In this document: positions 1 through 24,757 of the stretch, piece after piece | How the letters are laid out: each line of letters begins with the position of its first letter | How positions within the stretch are numbered: the stretch's first letter is position 1 | From: a virus | DNA length: 26,501 nt | Reading direction: 5' to 3' (one strand) | Virus record (IMG/VR): IMGVR_UViG_3300048018_000068 | Coordinates: 1 to 26,501 of that record | Made by a program: the position numbers and the translations under genes | The notes under the pieces: generated by a model | The model's database searches: none | The model's input: the letters and a program-made list of their open reading frames with translations, nothing else | What the model was told of the DNA's origin: nothing

Positions 1-324
1 GTTATATGTAGCTAAAACACCATCAGGTATAGAAGAACCCATATAAAAATATAAAACTACTGCTCCAGTATCACTTGCTAAGTCAACATCTGCACTAAAG
101 AATCCATTGCTACTAAAAGAAGCATTAATACCTGATCCACAAGGAACTAAGCATTCTCCACAAGGTTGTGCATTTAACAGCACACCATTTAATTGTTGTC
201 TTATAATATTTCCCTGAGAATACCATCCGTCAGGAGATAGGGTTGTTAATGTTGAATCTGTATACAAAGCCGTAGCTTGCGAAAAATTTAATCCATCAAA
301 ACAATATGTTCCTAATGCTGCCAT
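1..324 (-). CDS. Partial virion-associated protein with cysteine cluster (C-terminus beyond window)
   Basis: An open frame starts with ATG at 324 and runs without a stop to the left edge, giving 108 visible residues beginning MAALGTYCFDGLNF. It starts 12 bases after the stop of the large stabilization-like gene, so it belongs to the same transcript. Residues 19-50 (ATALYTDSTLTTLSPDGWYS and onward) have the Y-T-D / DG-Y-S / C pattern of small modules found in structural proteins of Bacteroidota phages. A cysteine cluster follows (CGECLVPC, about residues 56-63). The pattern resembles the C-terminal cysteine module of three other proteins in this window. Position and composition suggest a secreted or virion-surface protein. 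I cannot name a function, and the end of the protein is not visible. Confidence 0.75.
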   Translation of the reverse strand, partial: MAALGTYCFDGLNFSQATALYTDSTLTTLSPDGWYSQGNIIRQQLNGVLLNAQPCGECLVPCGSGINASFSSNGFFSADVDLASDTGAVVLYFYMGSSIPDGVLATYN

Positions 325-336
325 TTATTATTTTAT

Positions 337-3300
337 TTATGGGCATGTAGTTACCGCAGTAACTAAGCCAAATTGATTTACTGTTATATAATCTGTTGCG
401 CTTACCTTATATAGTCCTACTCCTAAATTACTACCAACTGCACCATCTGATGCATAATATACAAAATCTCCATATGCTGGCAAAGTTCCGCTACCTGAAT
501 GATAGTATGTAGCATTTAAAGGTTGATTACAAACGTTTGCTTCTACGGTAAATACAGTACTACTTGGATAAGCAGTGTATGTAAATGCACATTCACAGCA
601 TGCTGATGCCGCTGAACTTGCGTCATAACAAAACTCTTGACAGCTAACTAATCTGTAATCATATATTAAATACAAATATTGATTTGCAGTAGGTAATGAC
701 AAACTACTAATAGTTGTTTCATACAGACCTGCAGATGGATTGGTTACCGAACTGTCTGGCACTGTAGTTGCAGCTGCTAACAACGAAGCTATATCAGCTT
801 GATTATTAGAGTATAAAGTATTGCTTGATAAATATTTAAAATTATCGTTAGGATAGTTCCAGTCATATGTATCAAAATTAATCTTATTAGACCTGATCGT
901 TAAATCTATACCATCATATGGAAAAACTCCCAATGATCTTACCCCAACTTGACTGTCATAGTATGATGCTGTTAAATTATTATTGCCAAACTCTGCTAAA
1001 TCTGAATCTACTGGACTAATATTTATACTGTCCTCCCAAAAGTATTCAGCATGAATAAATTCTCCACTTTCATTTGGAGAGTTCATAACTACTTTTACTA
1101 CCGTTATAGACTCTGATTCAACACAGTTAGCTGTTACAACAAATGATGCTGTTGATACAGCTGTAATTGTTACTTCTGCATTAGCAGGACTGTTTAAAGT
1201 TTTGTCAAATGTAAATGTTCCAGAACCTGTTAGTGTTGAACTTGTTGTTGTTGTTCCATTCCATAGTACAGAAATAATTATTGAACCAGCAGTAACGTTA
1301 TAACTAAATCCTGCTGTGCCAATTAATGAACCATAACTTATCTCGCTAACAATTGCATTAGACGCCCCAACAGCTAAATTATTTCTTTGTAATTTATATC
1401 CACATTGAAAAATTTCTGGTGGCAAAGGAACTTCATTACAATTCATTCCTAAAACATATTCATCCATGTAAGGATCATATCCTCCTAATTTTTGAGTTTG
1501 TATTGATTTATGAAACTCATCTCTAAACCACGATCTCATTCCCATATCAGAGATTACTTCCAAAGAATCATTGTTTCTGCTTGTTCCTCTTAATTTTATT
1601 ACGGCACTTCTTTTTACATCAGTAAAAAACATATCATAACCATGAGAAACAAAACTTTCTGGATTATAACTAATACCATATTCTTCAATACGTGCAATTT
1701 GAGTTCCTAATATTTCAGGAATAGATGCTATAACACCTCCGCCTGTACTGTCGCTTATTAAATTTTTACTTGATAAAACATAAGTGATTCTATCTTCTTG
1801 TAAAACTAATATATCAGTCTCTCTTGGATGCATTTTTTGTATTGGACCAAAAGATGTTTCACAATCTTTAAAGTTTACTAAACCTAAATTAAATTCATTT
1901 AAGTTGTTAACACCACTATTACTACTAAAGATTCCACTGTATGTTATACCTTCAAATCTATCAGCTTCTTTATAGTCTTGATTAGATACAGCTAATGTTC
2001 TTTGACCTAATTGAAAAGGTCTTCCAGCTAACTGATCTTTTATTTTAAAACTTTCAACACCATTTCCAAAAGTGTAACAATCTATAAAATTTAAATTTAT
2101 TACAGCGTCTTGTGAAGCAGTTTGATTTTGGTCTCCTAAATCTGAGTTAACTCCCGACATATGAAATCCATCAGGCTGAGATATAGGAAAAGACTGAGAT
2201 GCGTCATAATATAATTCAGCATTTGCATCATTTGGTTCTGTCTCAAATACCATTAATGTGTTTGCTCTAAAAACTATAAGCTCAACTTCTAAATCAGAAG
2301 TTCTGTCGGTTTGAGGCCAAGGTCTATTACATCCTTTAACTCCAGATGAAACGCCTAAATATAAAGGGTCATTAACACCTTGACTACTATCTTGTATCCA
2401 TTGAAATGTTACAGCCCAAGTTGTACACGCCATATTATTTGCAACACCATTACCAGTTCCATTAGGCGTTGCTAAAGTAGTATCATTTATTATATCTGTT
2501 TCTTGCGAGATATTTCCAGGTAGACCAAGAGCTGGGTTTATGTTATCTCCAATCCACCATCTTCTCATATCAATATAATCTCTACTTGCAACATATTCTT
2601 GCTCCCATAACCACTCTCTTTCTTCACAGCTATTTCCATTAAATGTATCATTACGAAACATTCTTACTTCTATTTTAATAACTGAACCTCCTGGAACTTC
2701 ATAGTTTGTAGTAACACCTGTGTCAGAATCTGTAGTAAAACATTTATACCCAATTTTTCTGGCGTTTGTACATCCTCTTGCAGCACTCTTTTTTTTCTCC
2801 ATTCCAAACTCAATAATAGAATCATCTGGAATAACAATGTCAAAATTTTGATTTTTGATTAACATGTAAAGACCTTTAAGTTGAAAAGAGTCTTCACCAT
2901 ATTCATTTACGTCATTTAAAAAATTAGTAGGCTCTGCACTTATTTCTAAAATCTCACATTTTTCTACTCTTGTAAGAGGTCCACTAACGTCAGCTTTAAC
3001 CACAAGAGTTTGTCCTTTTTGAACTTTGTTTGCATTGTCACCTTCAAGCCTAAAAAACACCATGTTATCACTTGGCCTAACATAATAAAAGTTAGAAAAA
3101 ATAGTTTCATAACCTCCCTTACTTGGCTTTACAACAAACTTATATCGTTCTGCCCAATAAGGCGCTCTTGACGATACCGCTACTTGTATACTATTTGCTG
3201 TAACACTATTGCCAGGTTCTACATATACAGTGTTATATTCAGAAACTAAAACTGTAGATGATCTTCCATACTCATCGCTATAAACAATACCTGTTTCAAA

Positions 3301-5127
3301 GTCACGATCACTATGTAAGCTACCTGTATCTAAATCTGTATTAAATGATCCTTGAACGCTAACAAACCTAAAGTATTCATATAGTGTAGTTATTACTGGA
3401 GTAGAGGGATTAGTTAAATCCGTACTCTGAAAAGCCATAGCAATTACTTGAATGTCACACGTATTTGATCCTGGAGCAAAATTAGAAAGTGTAAAACCTT
3501 GCTGATTAGTCGCGTCTGTAATACTACTATTGTGTTTAACAAAAGGATATGTTCCTATGGCTGGAGAAGAAAGTTCATTATTAAAAAAATCTGTCAATGA
3601 GTTTCCTTGATCTGCTGTAGCAAGAGGTTGAAAGTTTGTATTAAGAATAGTTCCAATACGTTCTGCAAACAAAGGACTGTTAAAGAAGTCATATGGAGTT
3701 GCATAATCTTGATCTAAAGTTATATTTACATTAAGAGTAAATGGTTGGTTTTCAAAATCAACATTTTCTGTAGCCGCAGTAGTGTTAGACGGAAAGAAAA
3801 CTCTTTTGTCACTATGAAAATCAAATGTCAATCCTATCAAAGCATTAGCATTTAATTTATCAGCTATTGCTGTTAAGTCTATTGTAACCTTAGAGTTCTC
3901 TATGTTTTCGCTCTGTCCTGGATTAGGATCTATTGTATATGTTTCACCAGTATTTAGTAAGCCAAAAGGTAATTCAGAAAAACCTAAAAGCGTATTAACC
4001 AAACTTGTATTATAGTTAATAGCAATGTTATTTCCATCTGCATCTGGTCTTGTTATATTGTATCCGTCTACATAATTACCATACATTAATCTGTTTCCCT
4101 GTATGGTTTGAGCTTTTGCTAACCTTGGAACATTGTCATACTGTCTTAGTAATTCATCATTACCTAATACTGTATATATTTTGTTATTAGTAAATGTGTA
4201 GCTTTTATTTGTATTATTTGACCAACCATAATCTTCTTTTTTAAATCTTTCAATTACATTTAAAGTAGTAGAGTTTGTATCTTTAAATAATAAATCTACT
4301 TCTTTTACTCTTGAGCTTCCTGTAGAAAATTTAATCTCTACACCATTGTAAAGATTTAGCATCCCATCATTACAATAATTTTTTGTACTAAAAGCAAAAG
4401 GCTTAGGTACAAATGCTGGATTGGTAAATAAAGATGTTGCACTGTATTGACCATCATCATATCTATATCTATAAGCAAAACATAAAAATCTGTTTTCAAT
4501 ATAGTTTTGATTTCCTGCAATATTTAAAAAACTTATTGTTGGTGCTGGTAATGGAACATGTGTCCCTACAGCACTTTCAAAACCAGGAGGTTTTACAACC
4601 ACTGATATATCTTCTTCTACAATTTGATCTACGTTTGAAATAGGCTCTGGATAACTCCTATTTATATTTATTGTTCTTGGAGGATTTTTATCGTCAGTCC
4701 AAAACAAAAGGTCTTCAATTAAATCAACACCTGTAATTAAAAATTTAGGATCAAAATTTAATAAATCTACTGTTACTACGTGGTAATTAACTATCTCATT
4801 TGTAGTGTTATAAGAAACTACTAAATCAACTACCCCTTTAGGATTTTGAGTGTTTGAACCATCATGAATAAACCAATAAATATTTTCTCTAACACCATCT
4901 TCATATGCTCCTATACAGACAGCAGAAGAGCTTAGAGGAACTCCATTGTACTGTATTGTAGTTAGTTGCTCATTTCCTTTTGAGTTCTCTACAGCTCCTA
5001 TTTCAGTAGATTCAGTAGAACCTAAACGAACATTCATAGCGTCAATGTATTCACCTGGCGGAAGAAGTCTTTCATCCACAGATTTATTCATTCTACCTGC
5101 AATAAAATTTGTTGTAACTATTGGCAT
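337..5127 (-). CDS. Large tail stabilization / muzzle-like protein (1596 aa)
   Basis: This is the largest protein in the window. Its N-terminus (residues 1-50: TTNFIAGRMNKSVDERLLPPGEYIDAMNV split around GRMNKS and LLPPGEY, then GAVEN) matches what I recall of the stabilization proteins of podoviruses and the muzzle proteins of crAss-like phages, which form the distal end of the short tail, probably as a beta-propeller. The body is beta-rich with many aromatic and Gly residues. Residues from about 1496 form a cysteine-rich end (C1496, C1500, C1510, C1511, C1513, C1533, C1595) finishing in TTCP, and residues 1540-1596 match a module in two smaller proteins here. It starts one base after the upstream ring protein, and the three left-hand tail genes form a tight operon. 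The family is recognised from memory of conserved motifs, so the exact virion position is inferred. Confidence 0.75.
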   Translation of the reverse strand: MPIVTTNFIAGRMNKSVDERLLPPGEYIDAMNVRLGSTESTEIGAVENSKGNEQLTTIQYNGVPLSSSAVCIGAYEDGVRENIYWFIHDGSNTQNPKGVVDLVVSYNTTNEIVNYHVVTVDLLNFDPKFLITGVDLIEDLLFWTDDKNPPRTININRSYPEPISNVDQIVEEDISVVVKPPGFESAVGTHVPLPAPTISFLNIAGNQNYIENRFLCFAYRYRYDDGQYSATSLFTNPAFVPKPFAFSTKNYCNDGMLNLYNGVEIKFSTGSSRVKEVDLLFKDTNSTTLNVIERFKKEDYGWSNNTNKSYTFTNNKIYTVLGNDELLRQYDNVPRLAKAQTIQGNRLMYGNYVDGYNITRPDADGNNIAINYNTSLVNTLLGFSELPFGLLNTGETYTIDPNPGQSENIENSKVTIDLTAIADKLNANALIGLTFDFHSDKRVFFPSNTTAATENVDFENQPFTLNVNITLDQDYATPYDFFNSPLFAERIGTILNTNFQPLATADQGNSLTDFFNNELSSPAIGTYPFVKHNSSITDATNQQGFTLSNFAPGSNTCDIQVIAMAFQSTDLTNPSTPVITTLYEYFRFVSVQGSFNTDLDTGSLHSDRDFETGIVYSDEYGRSSTVLVSEYNTVYVEPGNSVTANSIQVAVSSRAPYWAERYKFVVKPSKGGYETIFSNFYYVRPSDNMVFFRLEGDNANKVQKGQTLVVKADVSGPLTRVEKCEILEISAEPTNFLNDVNEYGEDSFQLKGLYMLIKNQNFDIVIPDDSIIEFGMEKKKSAARGCTNARKIGYKCFTTDSDTGVTTNYEVPGGSVIKIEVRMFRNDTFNGNSCEEREWLWEQEYVASRDYIDMRRWWIGDNINPALGLPGNISQETDIINDTTLATPNGTGNGVANNMACTTWAVTFQWIQDSSQGVNDPLYLGVSSGVKGCNRPWPQTDRTSDLEVELIVFRANTLMVFETEPNDANAELYYDASQSFPISQPDGFHMSGVNSDLGDQNQTASQDAVINLNFIDCYTFGNGVESFKIKDQLAGRPFQLGQRTLAVSNQDYKEADRFEGITYSGIFSSNSGVNNLNEFNLGLVNFKDCETSFGPIQKMHPRETDILVLQEDRITYVLSSKNLISDSTGGGVIASIPEILGTQIARIEEYGISYNPESFVSHGYDMFFTDVKRSAVIKLRGTSRNNDSLEVISDMGMRSWFRDEFHKSIQTQKLGGYDPYMDEYVLGMNCNEVPLPPEIFQCGYKLQRNNLAVGASNAIVSEISYGSLIGTAGFSYNVTAGSIIISVLWNGTTTTSSTLTGSGTFTFDKTLNSPANAEVTITAVSTASFVVTANCVESESITVVKVVMNSPNESGEFIHAEYFWEDSINISPVDSDLAEFGNNNLTASYYDSQVGVRSLGVFPYDGIDLTIRSNKINFDTYDWNYPNDNFKYLSSNTLYSNNQADIASLLAAATTVPDSSVTNPSAGLYETTISSLSLPTANQYLYLIYDYRLVSCQEFCYDASSAASACCECAFTYTAYPSSTVFTVEANVCNQPLNATYYHSGSGTLPAYGDFVYYASDGAVGSNLGVGLYKVSATDYITVNQFGLVTAVTTCP

Positions 5128-9476: not shown

Positions 9477-9494
9477 AATTTTGTTTTTTTTTAA

Positions 9495-10643: not shown

Positions 10644-10659
10644 TTGATTATATTTTTAA

Positions 10660-10667
10660 CAAAGTTA
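10660..10667 (-). promoter_or_regulatory. Candidate Bacteroidota -7 promoter element (TAACTTTG)
   Basis: Minus strand TAACTTTG fits TAnnTTTG and ends 16 bases before the scaffold ATG at 10643, within a 54-base AT-rich gap. It could give an extra promoter for scaffold and capsid genes. No clear -33 box was found. Confidence 0.35.
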
Positions 10668-10697
10668 ATATTTATTTTAATTAAATTTTAGGGTATT

Positions 10698-10832
10698 TTA
10701 AATGTTTGAAAAACGCCTCCTTGCTTCCCATTGTACTTTCTTGGTTCTACCAAGCATACTTTTTTTACCCACTCTTTTATTAAAATCATCTCTTGTTTGA
10801 TTTAATTGTGGGCCTGCTGCCTTTTCTATCAT
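10698..10832 (-). CDS. Small basic protein (44 aa) between portal and scaffold genes
   Basis: A short frame starts at ATG 10832, nine bases after the portal stop, and ends in TAA at 10698. The product starts MIEKAAGPQLNQTRDDFNKR and continues VGKKSMLGRTKKVQWEARRR, ending FSNI. It carries many Lys and Arg and is predicted helical. It fills a gap that would otherwise be the longest empty one in the packaging block, and its spacing fits the operon. It could be a small DNA-binding or head-associated protein, but no family is recognised. The short length means chance cannot be excluded. Confidence 0.55.
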   Translation of the reverse strand: MIEKAAGPQLNQTRDDFNKRVGKKSMLGRTKKVQWEARRRFSNI

Positions 10833-10841
10833 TACTTATAT

Positions 10842-15523: not shown

Positions 15524-15776
15524 ATCCTTTTGGTGTGTTATTTACTTTAGTGTCAACTCCTTCTAATAAATCTTTTTCTTCTTGTATTTTTTTTAAAATT
15601 TCAAAAGCATCCATGATACATAGCTTTTTTGTAGCAGCTGCATTTTTTAATCTATCTGCAGCTAACTCATCATCTGTACCATATTTAATAATGTCTTCCT
15701 TCGCTACTTTGATCAGTTGCCTGACCGCCTCGTGACCCGCTTCTATTATTTTTAATTTTGTTTCTTTTGTATTCAT
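15501..15776 (-). CDS. Small helical protein before the terminase; possible small subunit
   Basis: A 91-residue charged, helical protein (ADRLKNAAATKKLCIMDAFE at about 40-59, ILKKIQEEKDLLEG at 60-73). The pattern of Leu, Ala and Lys is one I remember from a conserved hypothetical placed directly before terminase genes in marine phages. Small terminase subunits are usually helical oligomers that select phage DNA, and the location fits, but no helix-turn-helix is obvious. Its end overlaps the terminase start by 23 bases, and its start overlaps the 55-residue gene by about 92 bases. The role is a guess from order. Confidence 0.65.
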   Translation of the reverse strand: MNTKETKLKIIEAGHEAVRQLIKVAKEDIIKYGTDDELAADRLKNAAATKKLCIMDAFEILKKIQEEKDLLEGVDTKVNNTPKGFAESRSK

Positions 15777-15852
15777 TTTTAATACGCTTTACTTTTTTTA
15801 TTGGATAAATTTCTTCACTTAAATCATCCATCCAATCCCATTCTCTACTCAT
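15685..15852 (-). CDS. Small overlapping gene (55 aa) with ATGA coupling
   Basis: A frame starts at ATG 15852, whose ATGA overlaps the TGA stop of the upstream GroES-like gene, and ends at TAA 15685. The product starts MSREWDWMDDLSEEIYPIKK, followed by VKRIKNEYKRNKIKNNRSGS, and ends SSEGRHY. The first 20 residues are acidic and aromatic and the rest strongly basic. It fills the only gap between the GroES-like gene and the 91-residue gene, and about 92 bases at its 3' end overlap that gene in another frame. The exact start/stop overlap matches the coupling used across this operon. Only the N-terminal half lies outside another gene, so part of its composition follows the overlapping frame. Confidence 0.6.
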   Translation of the reverse strand: MSREWDWMDDLSEEIYPIKKVKRIKNEYKRNKIKNNRSGSRGGQATDQSSEGRHY

Positions 15853-16418
15853 AACACCACTGTTATATTTCTTGTAAACATCCTATATAATTTTTCATCA
15901 TCTACTACAAACTCGTATTCAGAGTCAGGTTCATATAAAACCTCATCACCTACTTTAACTCCCTTTTCAATTAACTCATTGTTAATGTATTTTACAATAC
16001 CTCTTAATGGTTCATTTTTAGAATTTTTATCAAGATAAGATTTTTTTGCTTTCAATGGTTTTATAAAACAATATTTGCTATAGCCCATCCAATTAGATTC
16101 TTCTTTACTTTTATAAAGATAAAACTGATCTGGGTCTACAAAAAACAAATTGTCTTTGAAAAAACTTTTACCACTTTTTCTGCGACCATACATGTCATTA
16201 TAAAATTTAAACACGTTATGATGTACTAAAAGTATATCGCCCTCTTTTATAGGACCTTTATAATTTATAGGAGTAGAGACTACAGTAGCAAAGCGATTAG
16301 AGGCTTTGTGATCTTCTTCCGAAGTACTTGTGATAAACTCTACATCACCGTAGTTTTTGATGTTGTCATACCTTCTATTGTTATAAGGTTTAACAATAAA
16401 TGAGTAAGGTGATTTCAT
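15849..16418 (-). CDS. Protein with two GroES-like (Cpn10) domains in tandem, tentative
   Basis: A 189-residue protein that reads as two similar halves. Residues 5-104 run SFIVKPY, a loop-like stretch ITSTSEEDHKAS (29-40), RFATVVSTP (42-50), then IKEGDILLVHHNVFKF (57-72). Residues 114-189 run YCFIKPL (116-122), RGIVKYI (139-145), then GVKVGDEVLYEPD (153-165) and ITVVL at the end. The order of an IVKP-type first strand, a mobile-loop-like stretch, a V-rich strand, and GDxVLxxxx followed by a terminal beta strand is the GroES layout. GroES rings cap chaperonins; phage T4 gp31 is a known phage example, and plant Cpn20 is a known tandem form. A capsid-folding role would suit the location before terminase, portal and capsid genes. 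Fold is inferred, not computed. Confidence 0.45.
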   Translation of the reverse strand: MKSPYSFIVKPYNNRRYDNIKNYGDVEFITSTSEEDHKASNRFATVVSTPINYKGPIKEGDILLVHHNVFKFYNDMYGRRKSGKSFFKDNLFFVDPDQFYLYKSKEESNWMGYSKYCFIKPLKAKKSYLDKNSKNEPLRGIVKYINNELIEKGVKVGDEVLYEPDSEYEFVVDDEKLYRMFTRNITVVL

Positions 16419-16642
16419 TAAAAGTTTATATTATATTCTAAAGATATAGGTAGAGTGCATTTGAATTCCTTCCAAAGTAAAACTTCATCTTTTTTCATAA
16501 TCCATATCTTATATGAATCTGCTGAAACATCATGCTGTATAAGATGTATTCCATAACTGCCGCCTAAAACATCCTGGCCTACTATGTAATGCATAGCACC
16601 AGACTTATAGTCTGCTCCAATTGAAATTTTTCTTATGTCCAT
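16418..16642 (-). CDS. Short conserved phage protein, unknown function (74 aa)
   Basis: A 74-residue, mostly beta protein starting MDIRKISIGADYKSGAMHYI and continuing VGQDVLGGSYGIHLIQHD. I associate this signature with a conserved hypothetical of crAss-like and marine flavobacterial phages. There is no signal peptide, membrane segment or catalytic motif. Its stop overlaps the GroES-like start as TAATG, so the two are probably coupled, and they may be produced in similar amounts. Function unknown. Confidence 0.75.
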   Translation of the reverse strand: MDIRKISIGADYKSGAMHYIVGQDVLGGSYGIHLIQHDVSADSYKIWIMKKDEVLLWKEFKCTLPISLEYNINF

Positions 16643-16653
16643 TTTTAATTTGG

Positions 16654-16884
16654 CTAAACAGCCTCAGTTGAAAGAACTCCTGTATTACTAACTAAAAGTC
16701 TCCAAACACTATTATCTGGCGCAATTAATTTTACAACACCACCATCTATTATAAAATTAGAAAGCGTTGAAATTTTACAAGACTTAGTCATTAGATTATT
16801 TTCTGCATCAGTAAGAATTAAATAATCGTCTGAGTCAATAACTGTAATATTTGGGTACGCTGATGTGTTGCTAATTTTTGCCAT
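16654..16884 (-). CDS. Small virion-type protein, possible head fiber or decoration (76 aa)
   Basis: A 76-residue protein. The segment YPNITVIDSDDYLILTDAEN (12-31), then LMTKSCKISTLSNFI, has the D-x-L-x-x-D ... T-K-x-x-x-I-S pattern seen at the N-terminus of small phage head-fiber and decoration proteins. The C-terminus (VVKLIAPDNSVWRLLVSNTG) is beta-like. It lies in a row of similar small genes between the fiber block and the packaging genes. A surface role on the capsid is plausible but rests only on this loose resemblance. Confidence 0.65.
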   Translation of the reverse strand: MAKISNTSAYPNITVIDSDDYLILTDAENNLMTKSCKISTLSNFIIDGGVVKLIAPDNSVWRLLVSNTGVLSTEAV

Positions 16885-16890
16885 GTTTTT

Positions 16891-17148
16891 TTATTCTATA
16901 ACCTCTGCTGTTTCAGCTGGTTGATTTTCTTTTACTTCTCCAGTTGCTAAATCAATAACAGAATTAGCTCCGTACTTTTCTGACAACTCTTTTTCAACAG
17001 CTGAAAACTTTCCTCTTATTGTATCCAAGTCTTTTGTATATAAAACTTGTTGATAAACTGAATCAGCTAATTTTAGTTTTACTTGAGTGAATTCTTGATT
17101 AAGAGCTTGTAAATTCTGTAACTCCTCTGGTGTTAAATTTTTTGACAT
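16891..17148 (-). CDS. Small coiled-coil protein, conserved in related phages (85 aa)
   Basis: An 85-residue protein starting MSKNLTPEELQNLQALNQEF. Residues 5-60 are predicted as one or two long helices with heptad-like Leu, Val and charged residues. The end (KYGANSVIDLATGEVKENQP) has the KYG ... DLxTGE signature I recall in small hypothetical proteins of flavobacterial and crAss-like phages. A promoter-like TATATTTG lies 29 bases upstream of its ATG. No enzyme motif or membrane segment is present. Function unknown; the helix could mediate oligomer assembly. Confidence 0.7.
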   Translation of the reverse strand: MSKNLTPEELQNLQALNQEFTQVKLKLADSVYQQVLYTKDLDTIRGKFSAVEKELSEKYGANSVIDLATGEVKENQPAETAEVIE

Positions 17149-17177
17149 TTTAGATTATTTTAGATTAAATTTATATA

Positions 17178-17185
17178 CAAATATA
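17178..17185 (-). promoter_or_regulatory. Candidate Bacteroidota -7 promoter element (TATATTTG)
   Basis: Minus-strand TATATTTG matches TAnnTTTG and lies exactly 29 bases before the ATG at 17148, in a 48-base AT-rich gap. The same element at the same distance precedes the neighbouring gene. No -33 TTG box is evident. Confidence 0.4.
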
Positions 17186-17196
17186 ATAAATATTAT

Positions 17197-17598
17197 TTAC
17201 TCATCATCAACAACTTCCTCTTCTTCTTCCGTTTCTGGCTCTGGTGGAGTAGGTGGTTGTGGATTCATCCAAGTAAAATACAAGTCCTCATTTACAGGTG
17301 TAATTTGAGACTGTATGTTTGCAGCTATACTTGCCTGCATCGAAGGAACATCTAATGATCCCTCTAACCATCCAATCACTACATTTTCAAAAGCTTCAGT
17401 ATCTTCATAAGGTACAAAAGGTTCTCCTGCTACATACGTGTAACTTTGAGTTCCTATATTAGTTGATGAATACGTTTTACCTTCAGACTCTTCAGAGCCT
17501 GTGTATCTGTAATGTACTGTATAAATTACATTATCTTGTCCGTCTGACTGAATATGAGCGTTCATTGCTGGGATATCCCACTTGTAAATAATTGCCAT
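17197..17598 (-). CDS. DUF7936-like protein with acidic tail (133 aa)
   Basis: A 133-residue protein. The first 105 residues (MAIIYKWDIPAMNAHIQSDG, then VIYTVHYRYTGSEE at 24-37, FVPYEDTEAFENVVIGWLEG at 61-80) follow the pattern of a small family I recall from T4-like cyanophages and other marine phages, labelled DUF7936. There the sequence runs YKW ... VxxxxxxxTG ... (F/I)xxYEx(L/T) ... VxGWxxG. The last 22 residues are Pro then Glu/Asp-rich (PPTPPEPETEEEEEVVDDE). Function of the family is not known to me. The gene stands in its own gap with a promoter-like element 29 bases upstream. Confidence 0.65.
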   Translation of the reverse strand: MAIIYKWDIPAMNAHIQSDGQDNVIYTVHYRYTGSEESEGKTYSSTNIGTQSYTYVAGEPFVPYEDTEAFENVVIGWLEGSLDVPSMQASIAANIQSQITPVNEDLYFTWMNPQPPTPPEPETEEEEEVVDDE

Positions 17599-17627
17599 TG
17601 ATTTTTTTTTAAATTAATTCACTTGTA

Positions 17628-17635
17628 CAAATATA
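17628..17635 (-). promoter_or_regulatory. Candidate Bacteroidota -7 promoter element (TATATTTG)
   Basis: Minus-strand TATATTTG, 29 bases upstream of the ATG at 17598, in a 54-base AT-rich gap after the 108-residue gene. Twin of the element at 17178-17185. The A-rich stretch just before the ATG is typical of Bacteroidota leaders. Confidence 0.4.
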
Positions 17636-17652
17636 CAAATTTTAATTATACA

Positions 17653-17979
17653 TTATGGAAAGCATAATCCCAATGAGGCTACTACTCCACTTCCACCTGT
17701 TATTCTATAATAACCAATTGTTGCAGGAGGTGATGCTCCGTTTTGGATTGTGTAAAAACCGTTTGCAGTTGTTGTTGTTCCTGCGGCATTCTCATAAACA
17801 GTATCTCCTGTGGTTGGGTTGTTCCCACTACCATCGTGATACTTTGTTGTATTCACAGATTGAGTACATATAAATTTAGTATCTGCCTGTCCTGAGCCAG
17901 AACTAAACGATGTATTCGTTGCACAATCTTTATCGTAACCGTACCAATCTGAAAATCTATATGGATAAGCTATAGGCAT
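17653..17979 (-). CDS. Small secreted-like module protein with three cysteines (108 aa)
   Basis: A 108-residue Gly/Thr/Ser/Asn-rich protein starting MPIAYPYRFSDWYGYDKDCA. Cysteines lie at 19, 38 and 106. Residues 47-108 form a module: YHDGSGNNPTTGDTVYEN, a Thr-rich turn, NGFYTIQNG, IGYYRITGG, then LGLCFP at the end. The same order (GSG, NP, GD-VY, G-Y, C-P end) recurs at the C-terminus of the 1596-residue and 155-residue proteins. It follows the 155-residue gene with a 10-base gap. No signal peptide. A virion surface or fiber-associated role is likely from its neighbours, but unproven. Confidence 0.7.
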   Translation of the reverse strand: MPIAYPYRFSDWYGYDKDCATNTSFSSGSGQADTKFICTQSVNTTKYHDGSGNNPTTGDTVYENAAGTTTTANGFYTIQNGASPPATIGYYRITGGSGVVASLGLCFP

Positions 17980-17989
17980 AATTTAATTT

Positions 17990-18457
17990 TTAAGGGCATT
18001 GACACCCATTAGTAGTTACTACTCCAGACGAATTAACAGAAATATTTGGACAACTACTTGATGTACAACCAAAAAATGTTCCTTGACCAAATATCCAATA
18101 TGAATTAGTTTGTGAAGCACCTGTCCAAGCGGTGTATGATCCATTTACATAATCATATAAAACATCATTTGTCACTAAACCAGTTATAGGGTTTCTTGTT
18201 GTAAAGACAGTAACAGGCGGAGGAGCAGGGTAATCAGCTTCATATAAAGTAATTTGATAATAACTTCTATCAACTGGATTAGGTGTACAGCCATCGTTTA
18301 CTGTAGGATAAGAATTACCAGAACCGTGAGAGTTTCCACCATTTATCATATCATACATAGATATTGGTCCAGTTATAGTTCCTGAACCCCAGGTTCCGTA
18401 TAAAGCTTCTTGCGCTATATCTAACATTGATAACGCTCCTGATGTTGGTACAGCCAT
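17990..18457 (-). CDS. Small fiber-associated protein with cysteine-ended module (155 aa)
   Basis: The N-terminal 42 residues (MAVPTSGALSMLDIAQEALY, then GTITGPISMYDMINGGN) are a type I recall at the start of short phage virion proteins, with MAVPTSG-like openings often seen in tail and neck proteins. A Gly/Ser linker leads to a C-terminal part with cysteines at 57, 131, 136, 152 and 154 and the module NPITGLVTNDVLYDYVNG, YWIFGQGTF, then VTTNGCQCP at the end. That module matches two other proteins here. The start overlaps the stop of the S74 fiber as TAATG. The placement suggests an accessory to the fiber or its attachment. Confidence 0.7.
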   Translation of the reverse strand: MAVPTSGALSMLDIAQEALYGTWGSGTITGPISMYDMINGGNSHGSGNSYPTVNDGCTPNPVDRSYYQITLYEADYPAPPPVTVFTTRNPITGLVTNDVLYDYVNGSYTAWTGASQTNSYWIFGQGTFFGCTSSSCPNISVNSSGVVTTNGCQCP

Positions 18458-18744
18458 TATTTAATCTGCTTTTTTAATTCTTCTATTTCCTCTTTTAATT
18501 CTTTTATAGCTTCTAAAAGTATAGGTGTTATTCCTTGATACCTTAAAGATAAGTTTCCTTTACCATTATCTCTAACGAGTTCTGGTAAAACTTTTTCAAC
18601 ATCTTGAGCTATAAAACCTATATCTTCTTTTATATCTAATATACCATCAGTTTCTTTCCAATCAAACGTAACCCCTTGAAGTTGCATTGCTTTATCTAAA
18701 GCACTTTCAATTGGCTTAATATTTTCTTTATACTTTCTATCAGA
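18457..18744 (-). other. Peptidase S74 intramolecular chaperone domain within the fiber
   Basis: Residues 1226-1320 of the fiber. The codon for Ser1226 is at 18742-18744. Key parts are SDRKYKENI, GVTFDWK, IGFIAQDVE, LRYQGITPILLEAI and a terminal coiled coil, in the expected order. Cleavage is expected just before Ser1226. Confidence 0.85.
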
Positions 18745-21700
18745 AGGCGCACCATAAGCTATTATATCTCCTTTCACCGTCAAGTCTCCACCTCCTGTGG
18801 TACTTGTATCTAAGACCATATAGGTAGTTTCCCCTGTACCAGCAGCATCATTACTCCATCTAAAATTATAACCATTTCCAGCTGTTACCTTAAATTGACC
18901 AGATTTATTACCTGTTTGATTTGGTTTTAAATGTAAAACAGCAGGTCCTGCTGTACTTGATTCAATTATAACGTGAGGATTAATAGCAGAAAACCTTGCA
19001 ATTGCACCACTCGAAGTTCCGTCTCTAACATCTAATAAATATGATGGAGCATTTCCCCCAATCCCGACGTTACCAACACCATCAATAACCATTCGTTGAG
19101 TTAAATTAGCCACCGTGTCTGCAGTCTTAAATATTAAATTTGCAGCATTTGTATTGTTAGGATATGGAGATGCTAATATTTCTCCGCCAGCTTGTACAGC
19201 AGAACTTGAATTTGTTTTTCTAAGTCTTAAGCCATAACTAGTTTGAGAAGCGCCTGCTGGAGAATTTATAGTTACGTGACCAGTAACTTCTAATTTTGTG
19301 CTTGGCGAAGTCGTCCCGATACCTACGTTTCCGCCTGTAAAATAAAATTTACCAGATGAATGTGCTGCAAACTGTATTCCTGTAGATTCTATAATTGTAC
19401 TACTATAAGCACTTGTGTCTCTATTGTATGTAAGAACATATCCATTCCCTCCAGATACCCCTGTTTCAAGTGCTAACCCGCTGCCTGAAGTGTACCATCC
19501 TTTAAACCTACCTTGGGCGTTTGCTTGTATGCTACCTTCAACTTGTAACTTAACCCCAGGGCTAGTCGTCCCGATTCCGACGTTGCCGTTTGACCCTAAA
19601 ATAGTCATCCTTGTATTTAAAGTTCCGTTAGTTTTAAATGATAAATTATTTGCGCTTTCTATTATTAAGTCGTTGGTTGACCCTTCTGTCTTAAGAGTAC
19701 AAGCAGCGCCGTTTTTCTTAAAAGCAATAGCAGTATTATTTGCTCTTACATAGCTTGTTCCAGCTTCGTTACCTACATAAAATGGATATACTAAACTATT
19801 TGTTACTGGGTAGTTTAATCGTATACCAAGTGAATTGCTAGTTGAAGTAACTGTTAACGGATCGGTTGGACTAGCTGTTCCTATTCCTACATCACCATCA
19901 AAATACGAAGTACCATCAGAATTAACATTCATTATAGGTACACCAGATATATCAGCAACTGAAAAAATATCCCCAGATAAATCATCTGTAACTGAGAATA
20001 ACTGACCTTGTGTTCCTTGCACGTCAAGTTTAGCGTTAGGTGTGTAAGTTCCAATTCCGACGTTGCCATTAGGCCCGTCTACAGTAAATATTTTTGAACC
20101 TGCGCTTAGTGGATTTGTTGCTCTTGTTCCTAAGTAATTTACAACAAATTTTCCATAAGCATTCCCAATAGCAAATGTTTTATCTGATGTATTTTGCGAA
20201 GCAAACATTTTAATCCAAGAGTCTCTTGTGTTTGGAGCCACTATAGCGTTACCTATATTCAATATAGTGTTATCAACATTTAAATCTTCATTTGCTATTT
20301 CTAATGCTGCTCCAGGATTAGTAGTTCCTATACCTACTTTACCTGCTGGAAAAATTACTTCAGTACCGCCTCTACTCATTGAAATACGTTTTGAAAATGC
20401 CCCAGTTGGGTCTACATTGTCGTTCATTCCTATGTAACCCACGTTAGCTGATCCATCATACTCAAAAGTCATCCCATATGTATCAGCCTCTCCAATAAAC
20501 AAGCGTGCGTCTATTTCAGTGTTATAGTTTCCTGCAATTATACGAACTAATGTATCGCCACCAGCTGAGTTCCTAAATCTTGCCGAGCTGTTTACAATGC
20601 TTGACATTACATCAAGCGCGTAATCAGGATTAGTAGTTCCTATACCTACTTTACCACCGTTAAGCCAAGAATTACCTTCTGTAAATATTCTTACTTTTTC
20701 AACCCCTTCATTGATTAGCTGAAGAATAGTGTCATCAGCGCCTGTTGCTGAAGACCCTGTACCTATCGAAACTATTTTATCACCACCTTTGTCTAATTGA
20801 ATAATTGCTCTACCTTGGTCTGCATCTAAATGTAAAATTCTTTCAGGATTAGTCGTTCCTATTCCTACGTTGCCAGCTGCTGGATTTAAAACTAAATCTA
20901 TATCTTCATTAGTAAAAGTATCAGTAGATACTTGGTAAGAGGCACCTTCAATAGATATATATCTGTCAGCAGACGCTGCTCCACCTTTTATAGCTGTAGC
21001 TAATCCAACCCTGTAGTCATCAGTGTCATTAGTATGAACAAATGTTGAATATGTTTTAGCAGTGCTTGTTCTTACAATTCCATTGTTTACAACAAACTGA
21101 ACAGGAGGGCTTGTATTTCCAACGCCTAACGTACCCGCTACATAAGTATTACCATTAACTGATAACTTTGTGCTTGCTAAAGGAGCTGCTTCAGGACTTG
21201 TAAACCCAATACCCACATTTCCTCCTGAGCCAACAGTTACGTGTTCATTAAACACAGTTCGAGCATCGTTAACTTCATAGATTTTTAATCTACCGCTATT
21301 AACCTGTATATCCCAATTTTTATCTGTTGTATCTGTTTCTTTTAACATAATACCAGGGTTTGCTGATGTTAGCTTTATAAATTCCAAATCAGCACTTGGT
21401 CCTGTTAATACTCCTGTAAAAGTTGGATTAGCAACTGGTAAATAAGGTCCACCAGCTCCACCGCCACTTGAAACTGTAATATTACCAGAAGCATCTGACA
21501 CTAAAGTACCTGCAGTATATGTGTTTAACTTAAGAGATCCCGCTGAGCTAAGAGTCAAAGCAACCGTACCAGCTGTGCCATTACCGCCAGTTTCTATAAT
21601 TATGCCCCTGCCCTCTGTTCCATAAATAGCACCTAATAGACTTTGGGTAACATTTTTAAAAGTTATAGCTGGTCTTGAAGCACCTACTCCTTTTAATGTT

Positions 21701-22419
21701 AACCCTGTATAATTAGAAAGATTACCGATTTCAAGTTCATCGATTGGAGTTGTTGTAATTCCAATACCTACTTTACCTGCAAAAGTTGCGTTTGGTGTGC
21801 TTGAAGCATCTATTCTTATTGCTTCAGTATTGTCTGTTCCAATAGATAACTCCTCAGAGCCGCCAGCAGTACCTATGAAAGTAGTTGGATCTACTCCAGT
21901 ACCATTTCTTATAATAAAAGAACCTCTTGCTCCTGTATTAGACCAAAACCTACCTAATACAGCGTCATCAGTGTCAGGTCCTTTAACGTCTAACATAGCG
22001 TTAGTTGATGCTGTTACCCCTACTCCTACTCTGGTTGCAAAAGTTGCAAACTGTTGTGCGTCTAGTCCAAGTGCTTCAGTACCAACTGTAAAAAACTTCA
22101 TTGTTGAACCAAGTGATTCAGCTCTTAATTCTACGTTATCTCTATCTGAGGAGTTTAATAATAATTTAGCTCTTACAGTTCCAGCGTCTGTTAAATACAA
22201 GTTGTCTTCAACTAAAACATCTCCAGAGAAATTTGAATCACCACTTGAGTTAATATCCAGTATCGGTACACCAGATATATCTGATACAGCGAATATAGAT
22301 CCGCTTAGATCGTCTGTTACTGAGAAAAGTTGACCTTGTGATCCTTGAACGTCTACTACAGTACCACCCGAAGCACCTTCTACAATTAGTCCTTTTTTTA
22401 TTTTAAATTCGTTTGCCAT
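18457..22419 (-). CDS. Long tail fiber with C-terminal S74 intramolecular chaperone
   Basis: A 1320-residue fiber. About a dozen repeats of the type NVGIGTTSPSTKLEV, in variants such as KVGIGTTNPDYALDV and NVGIGTYTPNAKLDV, run through residues 130-1200. These repeats are common in phage fibers and Bacteroidota surface proteins and often form elongated beta structures. A 44-residue module at 25-68 is repeated at 801-844. Residue 1226 begins SDRKYKENI, the S74 signature: Ser1226 and Lys1231 match the Ser-Lys pair that cuts off the chaperone after folding, as in endosialidase fibers. The last 20 residues are a Glu/Lys coiled coil (EAIKELKEEIEELKKQIK). The product probably trimerises and releases its C-terminal domain. 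Receptor specificity is not readable. Confidence 0.88.
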   Translation of the reverse strand: MANEFKIKKGLIVEGASGGTVVDVQGSQGQLFSVTDDLSGSIFAVSDISGVPILDINSSGDSNFSGDVLVEDNLYLTDAGTVRAKLLLNSSDRDNVELRAESLGSTMKFFTVGTEALGLDAQQFATFATRVGVGVTASTNAMLDVKGPDTDDAVLGRFWSNTGARGSFIIRNGTGVDPTTFIGTAGGSEELSIGTDNTEAIRIDASSTPNATFAGKVGIGITTTPIDELEIGNLSNYTGLTLKGVGASRPAITFKNVTQSLLGAIYGTEGRGIIIETGGNGTAGTVALTLSSAGSLKLNTYTAGTLVSDASGNITVSSGGGAGGPYLPVANPTFTGVLTGPSADLEFIKLTSANPGIMLKETDTTDKNWDIQVNSGRLKIYEVNDARTVFNEHVTVGSGGNVGIGFTSPEAAPLASTKLSVNGNTYVAGTLGVGNTSPPVQFVVNNGIVRTSTAKTYSTFVHTNDTDDYRVGLATAIKGGAASADRYISIEGASYQVSTDTFTNEDIDLVLNPAAGNVGIGTTNPERILHLDADQGRAIIQLDKGGDKIVSIGTGSSATGADDTILQLINEGVEKVRIFTEGNSWLNGGKVGIGTTNPDYALDVMSSIVNSSARFRNSAGGDTLVRIIAGNYNTEIDARLFIGEADTYGMTFEYDGSANVGYIGMNDNVDPTGAFSKRISMSRGGTEVIFPAGKVGIGTTNPGAALEIANEDLNVDNTILNIGNAIVAPNTRDSWIKMFASQNTSDKTFAIGNAYGKFVVNYLGTRATNPLSAGSKIFTVDGPNGNVGIGTYTPNAKLDVQGTQGQLFSVTDDLSGDIFSVADISGVPIMNVNSDGTSYFDGDVGIGTASPTDPLTVTSTSNSLGIRLNYPVTNSLVYPFYVGNEAGTSYVRANNTAIAFKKNGAACTLKTEGSTNDLIIESANNLSFKTNGTLNTRMTILGSNGNVGIGTTSPGVKLQVEGSIQANAQGRFKGWYTSGSGLALETGVSGGNGYVLTYNRDTSAYSSTIIESTGIQFAAHSSGKFYFTGGNVGIGTTSPSTKLEVTGHVTINSPAGASQTSYGLRLRKTNSSSAVQAGGEILASPYPNNTNAANLIFKTADTVANLTQRMVIDGVGNVGIGGNAPSYLLDVRDGTSSGAIARFSAINPHVIIESSTAGPAVLHLKPNQTGNKSGQFKVTAGNGYNFRWSNDAAGTGETTYMVLDTSTTGGGDLTVKGDIIAYGAPSDRKYKENIKPIESALDKAMQLQGVTFDWKETDGILDIKEDIGFIAQDVEKVLPELVRDNGKGNLSLRYQGITPILLEAIKELKEEIEELKKQIK
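19888..20019 (-). repeat. Internal fiber module repeat, second copy
   Basis: Encodes fiber residues 801-844 (from QGTQGQLFSVTDDLSGD). By my reading, 33 of 44 residues are identical to residues 25-68. Confidence 0.8.
22216..22347 (-). repeat. Internal fiber module repeat, first copy
   Basis: Encodes fiber residues 25-68 (from QGSQGQLFSVTDDLSGS). This copy lies at the N-terminus, where it may belong to the virion-proximal part; the other copy is mid-fiber. Confidence 0.8.
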
Positions 22420-22454: not shown

Positions 22455-23141
22455 TTATAATCCAAATCTTGATTTTTGTGCGTTATAGTTTTGTAATACT
22501 TGTGCTGCTGTTAAAGCTGTACTGTAAACTCTGACCGTAGGTATATCACCTAAAATACCTTCTCCATTTAAATCATATCTATGTCCTATCATAATATTAG
22601 AAACAGAAGGAAAAGTACAATTACTATGCGTGGCTGTATACTCTTGAGTACCATTTATATAAATTTTAACAACTCCAGTGTTAGTAAACGTATAAACTAA
22701 ATGACTAAATTTAGTTGTATCTATTGTAAGTCCACTTGGCTCCACCCAACTACCAATTCCGCTATTAGCAAATATATATCTTAATTGACCATTTGTACTA
22801 ATAGCTAAATCAGGATTATGAAATGCAGATGCAGCACCAGATGTTCCACTAAACCATCTATCGTGAGATGATACACCAGCAGCTTTAACCCATCCTTCAT
22901 ATGTAACTGACGAAGAACTACTTAAATTAATCTCACTAATAAATTTAATACCGTCATCTACCCCGTCAAATTGCCAAACACCTCCATTACCTGATCCAAA
23001 ACTAACACCATTAGTTAAGGTCCCTGTGTCTGATCCTGCTAAATTTGTAGCAGTTGTTCCACTTCCTGGATAACTTCTTGTGCTACCTGCATCTACTGCA
23101 AATACCAATCCGTCTTCTATTATATTTGGTCCTGTATACAT
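22455..23141 (-). CDS. LamG/concanavalin-like protein, third of three paralogs (228 aa)
   Basis: A 228-residue protein with one LamG-like jellyroll. It begins MYTGPNIIEDGLVFAVDAGS, then STRSYPGSGT, NGGVWQFDGVDDGIKF (about 52-67) and a closing DIPTVRVYSTALTAAQVLQ, NYNAQKSRFGL. This is the FDGxDD ... VxIYxxALTxxEVxxxYN pattern of LamG/concanavalin A-like domains that bind carbohydrates or protect surfaces. The sequence has no signal peptide, so it acts as a virion protein. The start overlaps the stop of the second paralog as TAATG. It shares both ends with its two neighbours but differs in the middle, as expected where the binding face varies. Confidence 0.8.
   Translation of the reverse strand: MYTGPNIIEDGLVFAVDAGSTRSYPGSGTTATNLAGSDTGTLTNGVSFGSGNGGVWQFDGVDDGIKFISEINLSSSSSVTYEGWVKAAGVSSHDRWFSGTSGAASAFHNPDLAISTNGQLRYIFANSGIGSWVEPSGLTIDTTKFSHLVYTFTNTGVVKIYINGTQEYTATHSNCTFPSVSNIMIGHRYDLNGEGILGDIPTVRVYSTALTAAQVLQNYNAQKSRFGL
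22471..22501. repeat. LamG-gene 3' conserved direct repeat, copy 1
   Basis: A 31-base plus-strand stretch encoding the shared ending VLQNYNAQKS of the LamG paralogs. It differs at only a few positions from 23154-23184 and 24102-24132. Confidence 0.75.
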
Positions 23142-23848
23142 TATATAAATCTGGTTTTTTGTGCGTTATAATTTTGTAATACTTCTGCAGCGGTGAAGCC
23201 TTTTTTATATATTTTAACGTTTGCTATATTGCCGTTAAAATATTCACCTGAACCACCACCTCCATTGTAAGTGTAACCTCCAATTGTTAAAGGTGTATTT
23301 AAAACTTGAGCATTTGTGGTTTGAGTTCCAGTAGCCGTAGCAACACCATTGTTATATATAGTTAGATTTGATCCGTTCCATGTACCTACTAAATTATACC
23401 AAACATTAGCTACCGTAGGGAGTGCTGCATATATTTGATTATAAGCGCCACTACCATTACAAAATGAAAGAAAAATCTTACTACTTGCTTGTCTCCAACT
23501 AAAAACATATGCTTGTTGATTGGTGGCACCGCCAGCAGACTTTGACACAAATCCAGCGTAACTACTTTGAGTTAAAGTATGTGGTTTAATCCAAACAGAT
23601 ATAGTACCTACATTGGTTAAATCTACATCTGTAGAGTTTGGCGCAGTAGCGTAATCATCTACGCCATCAAAATCAAAAGACCCACCGTTTGCTGCGCTAA
23701 AAGTAGGGCTGTTAGTTAAAACGCTGTTATTATTACCTACTAAATCTTTCCAAGCAGTTCCACTACCTGGGTACGATCTTTCACTTCCTGCATCTAAAGC
23801 AAACGTTAAATTTTCTGTTATTATATCTGGTCCACCGTATGCTCCCAT
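23141..23848 (-). CDS. LamG/concanavalin-like protein, second of three paralogs (235 aa)
   Basis: A 235-residue LamG-like protein starting MGAYGGPDIITENLTFALDA, then GSERSYPGSGTAW and NGGSFDFDGVDDYATAPNST (about 55-74). Residues near 79-91 read GTISVWIKPHTLT, the typical second LamG strand, and the end is IANVKIYKKGFTAAEVLQNY, NAQKTRFI. It begins one base after the small 80-residue gene and overlaps the third paralog by TAATG. The core around 95-180 (NQQAYVFSWRQASSKIFLSF, WYNLVGTWNGSNLTIYNNG) has the expected alternation of aromatic and Gly-rich turns. Probable role: glycan binding on the virion surface. Confidence 0.8.
   Translation of the reverse strand: MGAYGGPDIITENLTFALDAGSERSYPGSGTAWKDLVGNNNSVLTNSPTFSAANGGSFDFDGVDDYATAPNSTDVDLTNVGTISVWIKPHTLTQSSYAGFVSKSAGGATNQQAYVFSWRQASSKIFLSFCNGSGAYNQIYAALPTVANVWYNLVGTWNGSNLTIYNNGVATATGTQTTNAQVLNTPLTIGGYTYNGGGGSGEYFNGNIANVKIYKKGFTAAEVLQNYNAQKTRFI
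23154..23184. repeat. LamG-gene 3' conserved direct repeat, copy 2
   Basis: Same repeat as 22471-22501, with a shared 15-base core TTTTTGTGCGTTATA on the plus strand. It encodes the closing QNYNAQK segment. Confidence 0.75.
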
Positions 23849-23849
23849 A

Positions 23850-24092
23850 TTATTCTTCTTCTATTGGTTCACTCCATTCTGGAGTAGCCATTATTGCTAA
23901 TATCTCTTCGTGAGTGTAAGGTCCTTCGTATGAACTCAATGTTGATACAAATGCAGGTTCATCACCCTTCCATTTTAATACTGTTTGTAAACCATCAACT
24001 GATAGCCTAACTGTATCTGTTGATGTTTCCATAACTTCGTTGAAATCAACTAAAGATAATTCGTCTGTGTTTATTGTAATGTATGTTATCAT
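23850..24092 (-). CDS. Small conserved protein inserted between LamG genes (80 aa)
   Basis: An 80-residue acidic protein starting MITYITINTDELSLVDFNEV, then TVRLSVDGLQTVLKWKGDEP (27-46) and YEGPYTHEEILAIMATPEWS (55-74), ending PIEEE. I recall this pattern of SVDG-x-x-T-V-KW-x-G and EGPYTHxEIL from short hypothetical proteins near fiber genes of marine phages. No known fold name applies. The start forms an ATGA overlap with the first LamG gene and the stop is one base before the second. A role as a fiber or LamG chaperone or accessory is possible, inferred from this tight coupling only. Confidence 0.65.
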   Translation of the reverse strand: MITYITINTDELSLVDFNEVMETSTDTVRLSVDGLQTVLKWKGDEPAFVSTLSSYEGPYTHEEILAIMATPEWSEPIEEE

Positions 24093-24757
24093 AAGAATCT
24101 TGATTTTTGTGCGTTATAATTTTGTAGTATTTCAGTTGCTGTTAATGCTTGGTAGTAAACACGGCAAGCAGCTATTCCTCCGTTCCAAGGGTAACCAGAA
24201 TTATATGGTTGACCAGAACCTATGCCTAAGTTATTACCAAAAACAAAACTGGAAATAGTATCTGTAGCTTTAAGAACTCCATTAGCATAAAGCTTTGCTG
24301 TTGTTCCACTAAAAACAATGTTTATATAATACCATTCTCCATTTGTAAACGTTAAATCTGTATCACCAGAACCCCAACCTCTATCTTGTATACCCCAGCC
24401 TAATTTTTGGCTTATAGATCCTACATAAAATCTAACACTACCACCCCAGTTTGATTGCATTATAAACATAGAAGTCTGCCCAACATCTGGTTTCACCCAT
24501 ATACCGTAACTAAGATCTTGTGTTGTTGGGTTTAAGCCATTACCAAAATTAGTAAGAATATAGTCATCAGTTCCATCAAAGTCCCAAAAACCTCCATTAT
24601 TACTACTATAAGCAACGCCATTGTATAAAGTAGCTGTATTAGTACCTACTATACTATTAACTGAAGTTCCTGAACCTGAGTAGCTTCTTTCGCTTCCCGC
24701 GTCTAAGGCTAGCTTTAAATCGTCTGTTATTATATTTGGTCCTCTATAAAATCCCAT
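24089..24757 (-). CDS. LamG/concanavalin-like protein, first of three paralogs (222 aa)
   Basis: A 222-residue LamG-like protein starting MGFYRGPNIITDDLKLALDA, then GSERSYSGSGTSV and NGGFWDFDGTDDYILTNFG (about 54-72). Strand-like segments follow (LSYGIWVKPDVGQTSMFIM, WYYINIVFSGTTAKLYANG), and it ends with CRVYYQALTATEILQNYNAQ then KSRFL. It shares both termini and the FDGxDDY core with the other two LamG proteins and is the most divergent of them in the middle. It starts one base after the preceding fiber gene and is followed by the 80-residue gene with an ATGA overlap. Probable surface-binding virion protein, receptor unknown. Confidence 0.8.
   Translation of the reverse strand: MGFYRGPNIITDDLKLALDAGSERSYSGSGTSVNSIVGTNTATLYNGVAYSSNNGGFWDFDGTDDYILTNFGNGLNPTTQDLSYGIWVKPDVGQTSMFIMQSNWGGSVRFYVGSISQKLGWGIQDRGWGSGDTDLTFTNGEWYYINIVFSGTTAKLYANGVLKATDTISSFVFGNNLGIGSGQPYNSGYPWNGGIAACRVYYQALTATEILQNYNAQKSRFL
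24102..24132. repeat. LamG-gene 3' conserved direct repeat, copy 3
   Basis: Same repeat as 22471-22501 and 23154-23184, with a few substitutions near its right end on the plus strand. It encodes the shared NYNAQK segment. Confidence 0.7.

Follow-up and report, generated by a model that had tools for sequence, protein, structure and literature searches.

A cysteine-bounded C-terminal module that moves between virion-type phage proteins

Tail-borne add-on domains, BACON and Ig-like domains among them, are a recurring means by which phages adjust their attachment. The BACON domains of crAss-like phages are tandem, tail-linked domains that have spread by duplication and horizontal transfer (PMC6949934), and the Ig-like accessory or adhesin domains of tailed phages are add-on domains able to mediate adhesion (PMC13370021). 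Tail proteins can also be held together covalently, as in phi-crAss001, where they are stabilised by inter-subunit disulfides (PMC10172136). Among library families, the only one that matches the module described here well (14 of 15 modules, best E 2.1e-9) is PHROG 21885, a family without functional description that includes gp086 of Cellulophaga phage phi38:1 and gp62 of phi18:1 and lies downstream of a tail gene; gp086, from a cultured phage, directly follows the endosialidase-chaperone gene.

The stretch of DNA that we analysed, hereafter the window, is a linear virus record of 26.5 kb (26,501 nt) with all of its long genes on the minus strand (Table 1). Among annotated phages it is closest to a Manatee Spring podovirus and to Cellulophaga phages of the Pachyviridae and Pervagoviridae, which have the same gene order; in phi18:3 the homologue of the giant 1596-aa protein, gp114, is detected by MS/MS, which makes the giant-protein family one of virion proteins. 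The giant protein is muzzle- or tail-tip-like only in its gene position, and neither its sequence (E up to 0.1) nor an 11-member profile (E up to 10) gave any PDB match, the solved crassvirus muzzle, phi-crAss001 gp44, included. At the other end of the window, three laminin-G/concanavalin-like genes lie upstream of an S74 fibre gene, and the genes for a 108-aa and a 155-aa protein directly downstream of it, sharing a cassette with a DUF7936 gene near a Cpn10-like gene. Compared with two loci (L051 and L004) whose terminase is 100% identical to that of the window, the S74 fibre protein shows only 60% identity in its C-terminal part, a likely fibre swap.

Table 1. Position and basis of assignment of the features of the window, with unit B from a related locus.
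Feature	Position	Strand	Basis
Terminase			PHROG 6681
Portal			PHROG 6547
Coat-type protein			PHROG 13704
Two virion proteins			PHROG 14543, PHROG 13977
Partial gene (P0001), first 108 aa, cut by window edge	1-324	-	coordinates confirmed
Short module form (residues 4-55), start of gene after giant protein	160..315	-	short-unit profile 3e-31; hhalign 84-93%
1596-aa giant protein gene	337-5127	-	coordinates confirmed
Module at extreme C-terminus of giant protein (residues 1514-1595)	343..588	-	108-aa family profile, iE 6.8e-12
Giant protein body, structural	589..5127	-	PHROG 14478, E 6.4e-230
108-aa protein gene	17653-17979	-	coordinates confirmed
Module of 108-aa protein (residues 19-106, Cys19 to Cys106)	17662..17925	-	BLASTP, profiles, confident AlphaFold model
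Leader MPIAYPYRFSDWYGYDKDC of 108-aa protein, reused before other C-terminal domains	17923..17979	-	same leader in L048, L015/L023
Junction of the two extra modules of L015	17923..17933	-	L015 comparison
155-aa protein gene (P0004)	17990-18457	-	coordinates confirmed
Probable divergent module of 155-aa protein (residues 57-154)	17996..18289	-	hhalign 67-92%; L131 bridge, iE 5e-5
Leader of 155-aa protein (MAVPTSGALSMLDIAQEALYGTWGSGTITGPISMYDMINGG...)	18290..18457	-	homologous leaders in L146, L125, L183
1320-aa tail-fibre-type protein with S74 chaperone, directly upstream of module genes	18457..22419	-	Peptidase_S74, 2.5e-20
Three concanavalin/laminin-G-like paralogues (228, 235, 222 aa) and 80-aa ORF	22455..24757	-	Laminin_G_3, 7e-19, 1e-24, 2e-20
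Unit B	L069:11042-11254 (residues 348-418 of P0001-type protein)		

An initial annotation of the window had the 1596-, 108- and 155-residue proteins share a C-terminal module, and for the first two this holds. Residues 37-62 of the 108-aa protein align with residues 1532-1557 of the giant protein (BLASTP E 7e-6), the two ends give a Smith-Waterman score of 90, where 1000 shuffles reach at most 59, and a profile of the 108-aa family from whose seed the giant protein was absent matches giant residues 1514-1595 (iE 6.8e-12). The module makes up nearly all of the 108-aa protein. It is C-terminal in every close relative of the giant protein (~1589-1608 aa, iE about 1e-24); the homologues in phi18:3 and the Manatee Spring podovirus end without it. 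For the 155-residue protein the relationship appears only when profiles are compared with profiles, as described below. The motif put forward for all three, NP-x-TGDxVY or a variant, proved loose, since NP.TGDTVY is found only in the 108-aa protein, with LPAYGDFVY in the giant protein and NPITGLVTNDVLY in the 155-aa protein; likewise the ends, given as C-x-P, are actually CP, CFP and CQCP.

A search at iE 1e-4 or better, for which reversed ORFs reached a best iE of 0.36 and shuffled ones 4.8, found 226 modules in 176 distinct proteins from 187 loci, and with controls this clean the homology of the module is real. It measures about 85 residues, with the consensus C.TlTSFsSS.gq.....aC.qt.nqTYYHdGSGtlPvvGDtVYsdS.GtT.L..GyYki....t.yi.v.g.GvV.sv..C, and both boundary cysteines are present in 174 of 222 unique modules, a count that local alignment can lower by trimming the ends. 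The module is the last feature in 155 of the 175 complete proteins, and every one of these 155 has a cysteine within its last 8 residues, as compared with 83 of 992 other ORFs. Its carriers include the C-termini of giant proteins, the gene after the giant protein (1-4 copies) and small proteins with at least three types of leader, and tandem copies number one to four per protein. It is fused to the chaperone end of an S74 protein in L172, to a VWA-like stretch in L043 and to FN3-like stretches in L184 and L116, some of these assignments lying below Pfam cut-offs. The module was found in viral records only: two scans of bacterial and archaeal genomes, sensitive to closely matching patterns only, returned none, and at that sensitivity a bacterial origin or spread with prophages is unsupported.

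In the genes after the giant protein, short units and modules are arrayed together with a second Cys-rich unit, here called B (...GDVvqyqiGtPGsGavYCGTV...ADATL...YgCgDtvHC), which alternates with the module in varying order in L069, L096, L103 and L105. Other arrangements were seen as well. The gene at L043:2438-3934 encodes 498 aa, comprising a P0004-type leader, the VWA-like segment, an internal SDWYGYDKDC leader motif and two modules, and L047:2521-3268 holds two adjoining genes with different leaders and one module each.

Within the window, pairwise BLASTP gave no signal for the 155-aa and partial proteins, and shuffled sequences scored as well as the end of the 155-aa protein in 16, 122 or 808 of 1000 cases and as well as the partial protein in 53 or 320 of 1000. 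When profiles were compared, the tail of the 155-aa family matched the module with an hhalign probability of 67-92% (best of 100 column shuffles, 1.3%), and N-terminal short units like residues 4-55 of the partial gene matched it at 84-93% (2.7% or 23% at best in 100 column shuffles, depending on the master alignment). One locus, L131, bridges the 155-aa-type and canonical forms (iE 5e-5), and in L146, L125 and L183 canonical modules come after 155-aa-type leaders (iE 5e-20 to 1e-11). By these comparisons, both the 155-aa tail and the N-terminal unit of the partial gene are probable divergent members of the family. A related pattern had been noticed in the partial gene from the outset; what is encoded there is a unit of ~50 residues that does end in Cys and that lies N-terminally, not at the end of the protein. 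Full-length relatives of this gene carry 1-4 full modules further on, and in several giant proteins the short form lies ahead of the module (in L133, for instance, at 1461-1509, with the module at 1532-1611). A domain of ~190 residues (CG.G...G.. VvlYF...iPDg...y...CP) is found in the middle of the P0001-type protein (1-159 of the window) and at the end of the giant protein in L113, L116 and L107; by eye it looks common to other leader proteins and to the C-terminal end of the giant protein in phi18:3, as if swapped.

The AlphaFold model of the 108-aa protein (86 sequences) has a pLDDT of about 90 through most of the module, with strands at 23-27, 44-48, 60-62, 74-80, 87-93 and 99-105, and the module is thus confidently predicted to be a small beta domain. 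The model of the 155-aa protein is of low confidence (pLDDT 64) and without a fold match, with an order of strands similar to that of the module. With the 108-aa model, Foldseek returned nothing from the PDB better than E 3.6 and a probability of 0.08; in BFVD seven matches passed 0.001, headed by S0A289 of phi17:1, and those with names are all uncharacterised. Searches of Pfam, NCBIfam and PDB sequences with the modules gave nothing convincing, and the matches to NCBIfam CrgA (0.007) and Pfam ATAD3_N (0.3), far below cut-offs, were discarded. Cultured relatives were reached by profile only; a tblastn search of 50,697 phage records with the window modules gave no match. A literature search, incomplete in its coverage, found no description of such a module, which is apparently undescribed so far.

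The proposal that the module moves between virion-type proteins is well supported by its presence behind several unrelated leaders and at the end of the giant protein, in one to four tandem copies, and by its gain or loss in frame. In L015, which shares ~96% DNA identity with the window over 8527-15854 (7.3 kb of core genes), the counterpart of the 108-aa protein has 284 aa, with the same leader, two extra modules and the same last module. The difference between the two genes is 528 bp, or 176 codons in frame, and the break falls on the codon of Cys19; two modules were therefore gained or lost in frame, at a cysteine codon, between near-identical phages. The same leader (MPIAYPYRFSDWYGYDKDC) precedes an FN3-like stretch in L048 and three modules in L015/L023. 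In a tree of the modules, built on 87 columns and with few forks resolved, 34 changes in the type of carrying protein are needed, against a minimum of 5 and a mean of 69.5 on shuffling, and the modules thus cluster by carrier yet cross between carriers.

Exchange is also visible at the level of genes. Where terminase identity is 65-77%, identities are 44-94% for the 108-aa protein and 38-90% for the 155-aa protein; in L012 the terminase is 77% and the 108-aa protein 94% identical, and in L007 the terminase is 67%, the 155-aa protein 90% and the 108-aa protein 94% identical. Judged by these identities, the small genes vary independently of the terminase, in the manner of exchanged cassettes. 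The genes at 15849-17979 of the window, encoding the 108-aa protein, the DUF7936 protein (133 aa) and an 85-aa protein, are often far more alike between divergent phages than the terminase or the Cpn10-like gene, and their sequences suggest a transferred cassette. The copy of the module on the giant protein is vertically inherited, with identities of mostly about 71-80% as compared with 82-86% for the body among closer relatives.

We favour, with moderate confidence, the reading that the module is an exchangeable, cysteine-held surface domain through which the tail would contact the host, because its genomic company is that of tail adhesion proteins (S74, laminin-G, VWA-like, FN3-like, BACON). 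Marine flavobacterial phages would attach the module to tail-associated proteins as a terminal bead, each bead being a self-contained small beta domain bounded by conserved cysteines and held by a disulfide between the two. Short leaders, or the giant tail-tip body, would anchor the product on the tail, and single or tandem modules would point outward and bind host-surface material, probably glycans. In this scheme we infer the virion location of the small proteins, the formation of the disulfide and adhesion. The attachment role offered in the initial annotation draws its support from context, namely the lectin-like and S74 fibre neighbours, the fusions to S74, VWA-like and FN3-like stretches and the exchange of cassettes, and the module may possibly serve it. 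Phage proteins are made in a reducing cytoplasm, and disulfides are therefore not assured. Strong conservation of both boundary cysteines makes one within the module plausible, as does the precedent of documented disulfides in a crassvirus tail (PMC10172136). As a tentative extension, the module might be a new fold and a universal clip-on adhesin of flavobacterial phages, whose cysteine-joined beads, gained and lost at the Cys codon on tail-tip and fibre-associated proteins, tune host range in short-tailed and other phages.

Several findings count against adhesion. In its copy on the giant protein the module varies only a little more than the body does, unlike a hypervariable receptor-binding tip, and a Foldseek search of the PDB shows no likeness to a known carbohydrate-binding fold. 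The main rival, which we judge rather unlikely, is that the module is a structural cement or assembly cap that packs against tail subunits, or cross-links them through its cysteines, and so stabilises the tail tip. Its constant presence and vertical conservation at the end of the giant protein in close relatives would fit this role, as would the inter-subunit disulfides of the phi-crAss001 tail (PMC10172136) and the odd number of cysteines in the 108-aa protein, three, which leaves one free for a partner; a host-facing part agrees better with the variable copy number, the many leaders and an exchange of the small genes uncoupled from the terminase.

The small stand-alone proteins might instead be secreted or intracellular accessory proteins, for example in superinfection or defence, that reuse the module and are not parts of the virion. 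Such a role would agree with the annotation of phi38:1 gp086 and phi18:1 gp62, in MS/MS-annotated genomes, as hypothetical and not structural, which also counts against adhesion, and with the cassette shared with the DUF7936 gene near the Cpn10-like gene. However, the leaders of these proteins elsewhere precede adhesion-type domains (S74 in L172, VWA-like in L043, BACON in Maribacter phages) and the genes adjoin fibre genes, and we regard an accessory role as improbable. That Gly- and Tyr-rich beta proteins merely happen to end in Cys survives mainly for the tail of the 155-aa protein, where P0004, like P0001, is hardly distinguishable pairwise from shuffled sequence and the model is of low confidence with no fold match; set against the 1596/108 pair and the 176 proteins with their clean reversed and shuffled controls, chance is a most improbable explanation of the module.

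The module has no solved structural relative. Across a large group of marine flavophages it shows where tail-associated proteins are anchored, built into arrays and swapped. Hundreds of proteins now called hypothetical could be named by means of it, and it allows cultured Cellulophaga phages to be asked whether modules affect which cells a phage sticks to.

Several known systems can be compared with the module. Residues 69-149 of phi38:1 gp086 are a divergent module (iE 7e-8), and S0A289 of phi17:1 appears to be of the same PHROG 21885 type. Proteins of that type have one module and a VPNTTTF...FRNY leader, from which the leaders of the 108-aa and 155-aa proteins differ; gp086 and gp62 match the family end to end, whereas the 108-aa and 155-aa proteins do not, the 108-aa protein on its own reaching E 0.02-0.03 over profile positions 67-126. 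The giant protein belongs to PHROG 14478, which may be compared with the muzzle (tail stabilisation) protein, and carries the terminal module in addition. With the Ig-like domains of tailed phages the module shares its nature as an add-on to a phage protein, and differs in having no Ig match in Foldseek or Pfam. BACON domains resemble it in being tandem on tail-associated proteins and horizontally mobile, and a phi38:1-type leader precedes a BACON-annotated protein in Maribacter phages (e.g. Colly_1); the module differs in being cysteine-bounded and without a PDB fold match. An hmmscan of 15 modules against Pfam gave no BACON, only Choline_bind_1 (0.047) in one of them. While membership of the BACON family thus failed the profile test, BACON arrays are a fair comparison for the way in which the module may work.
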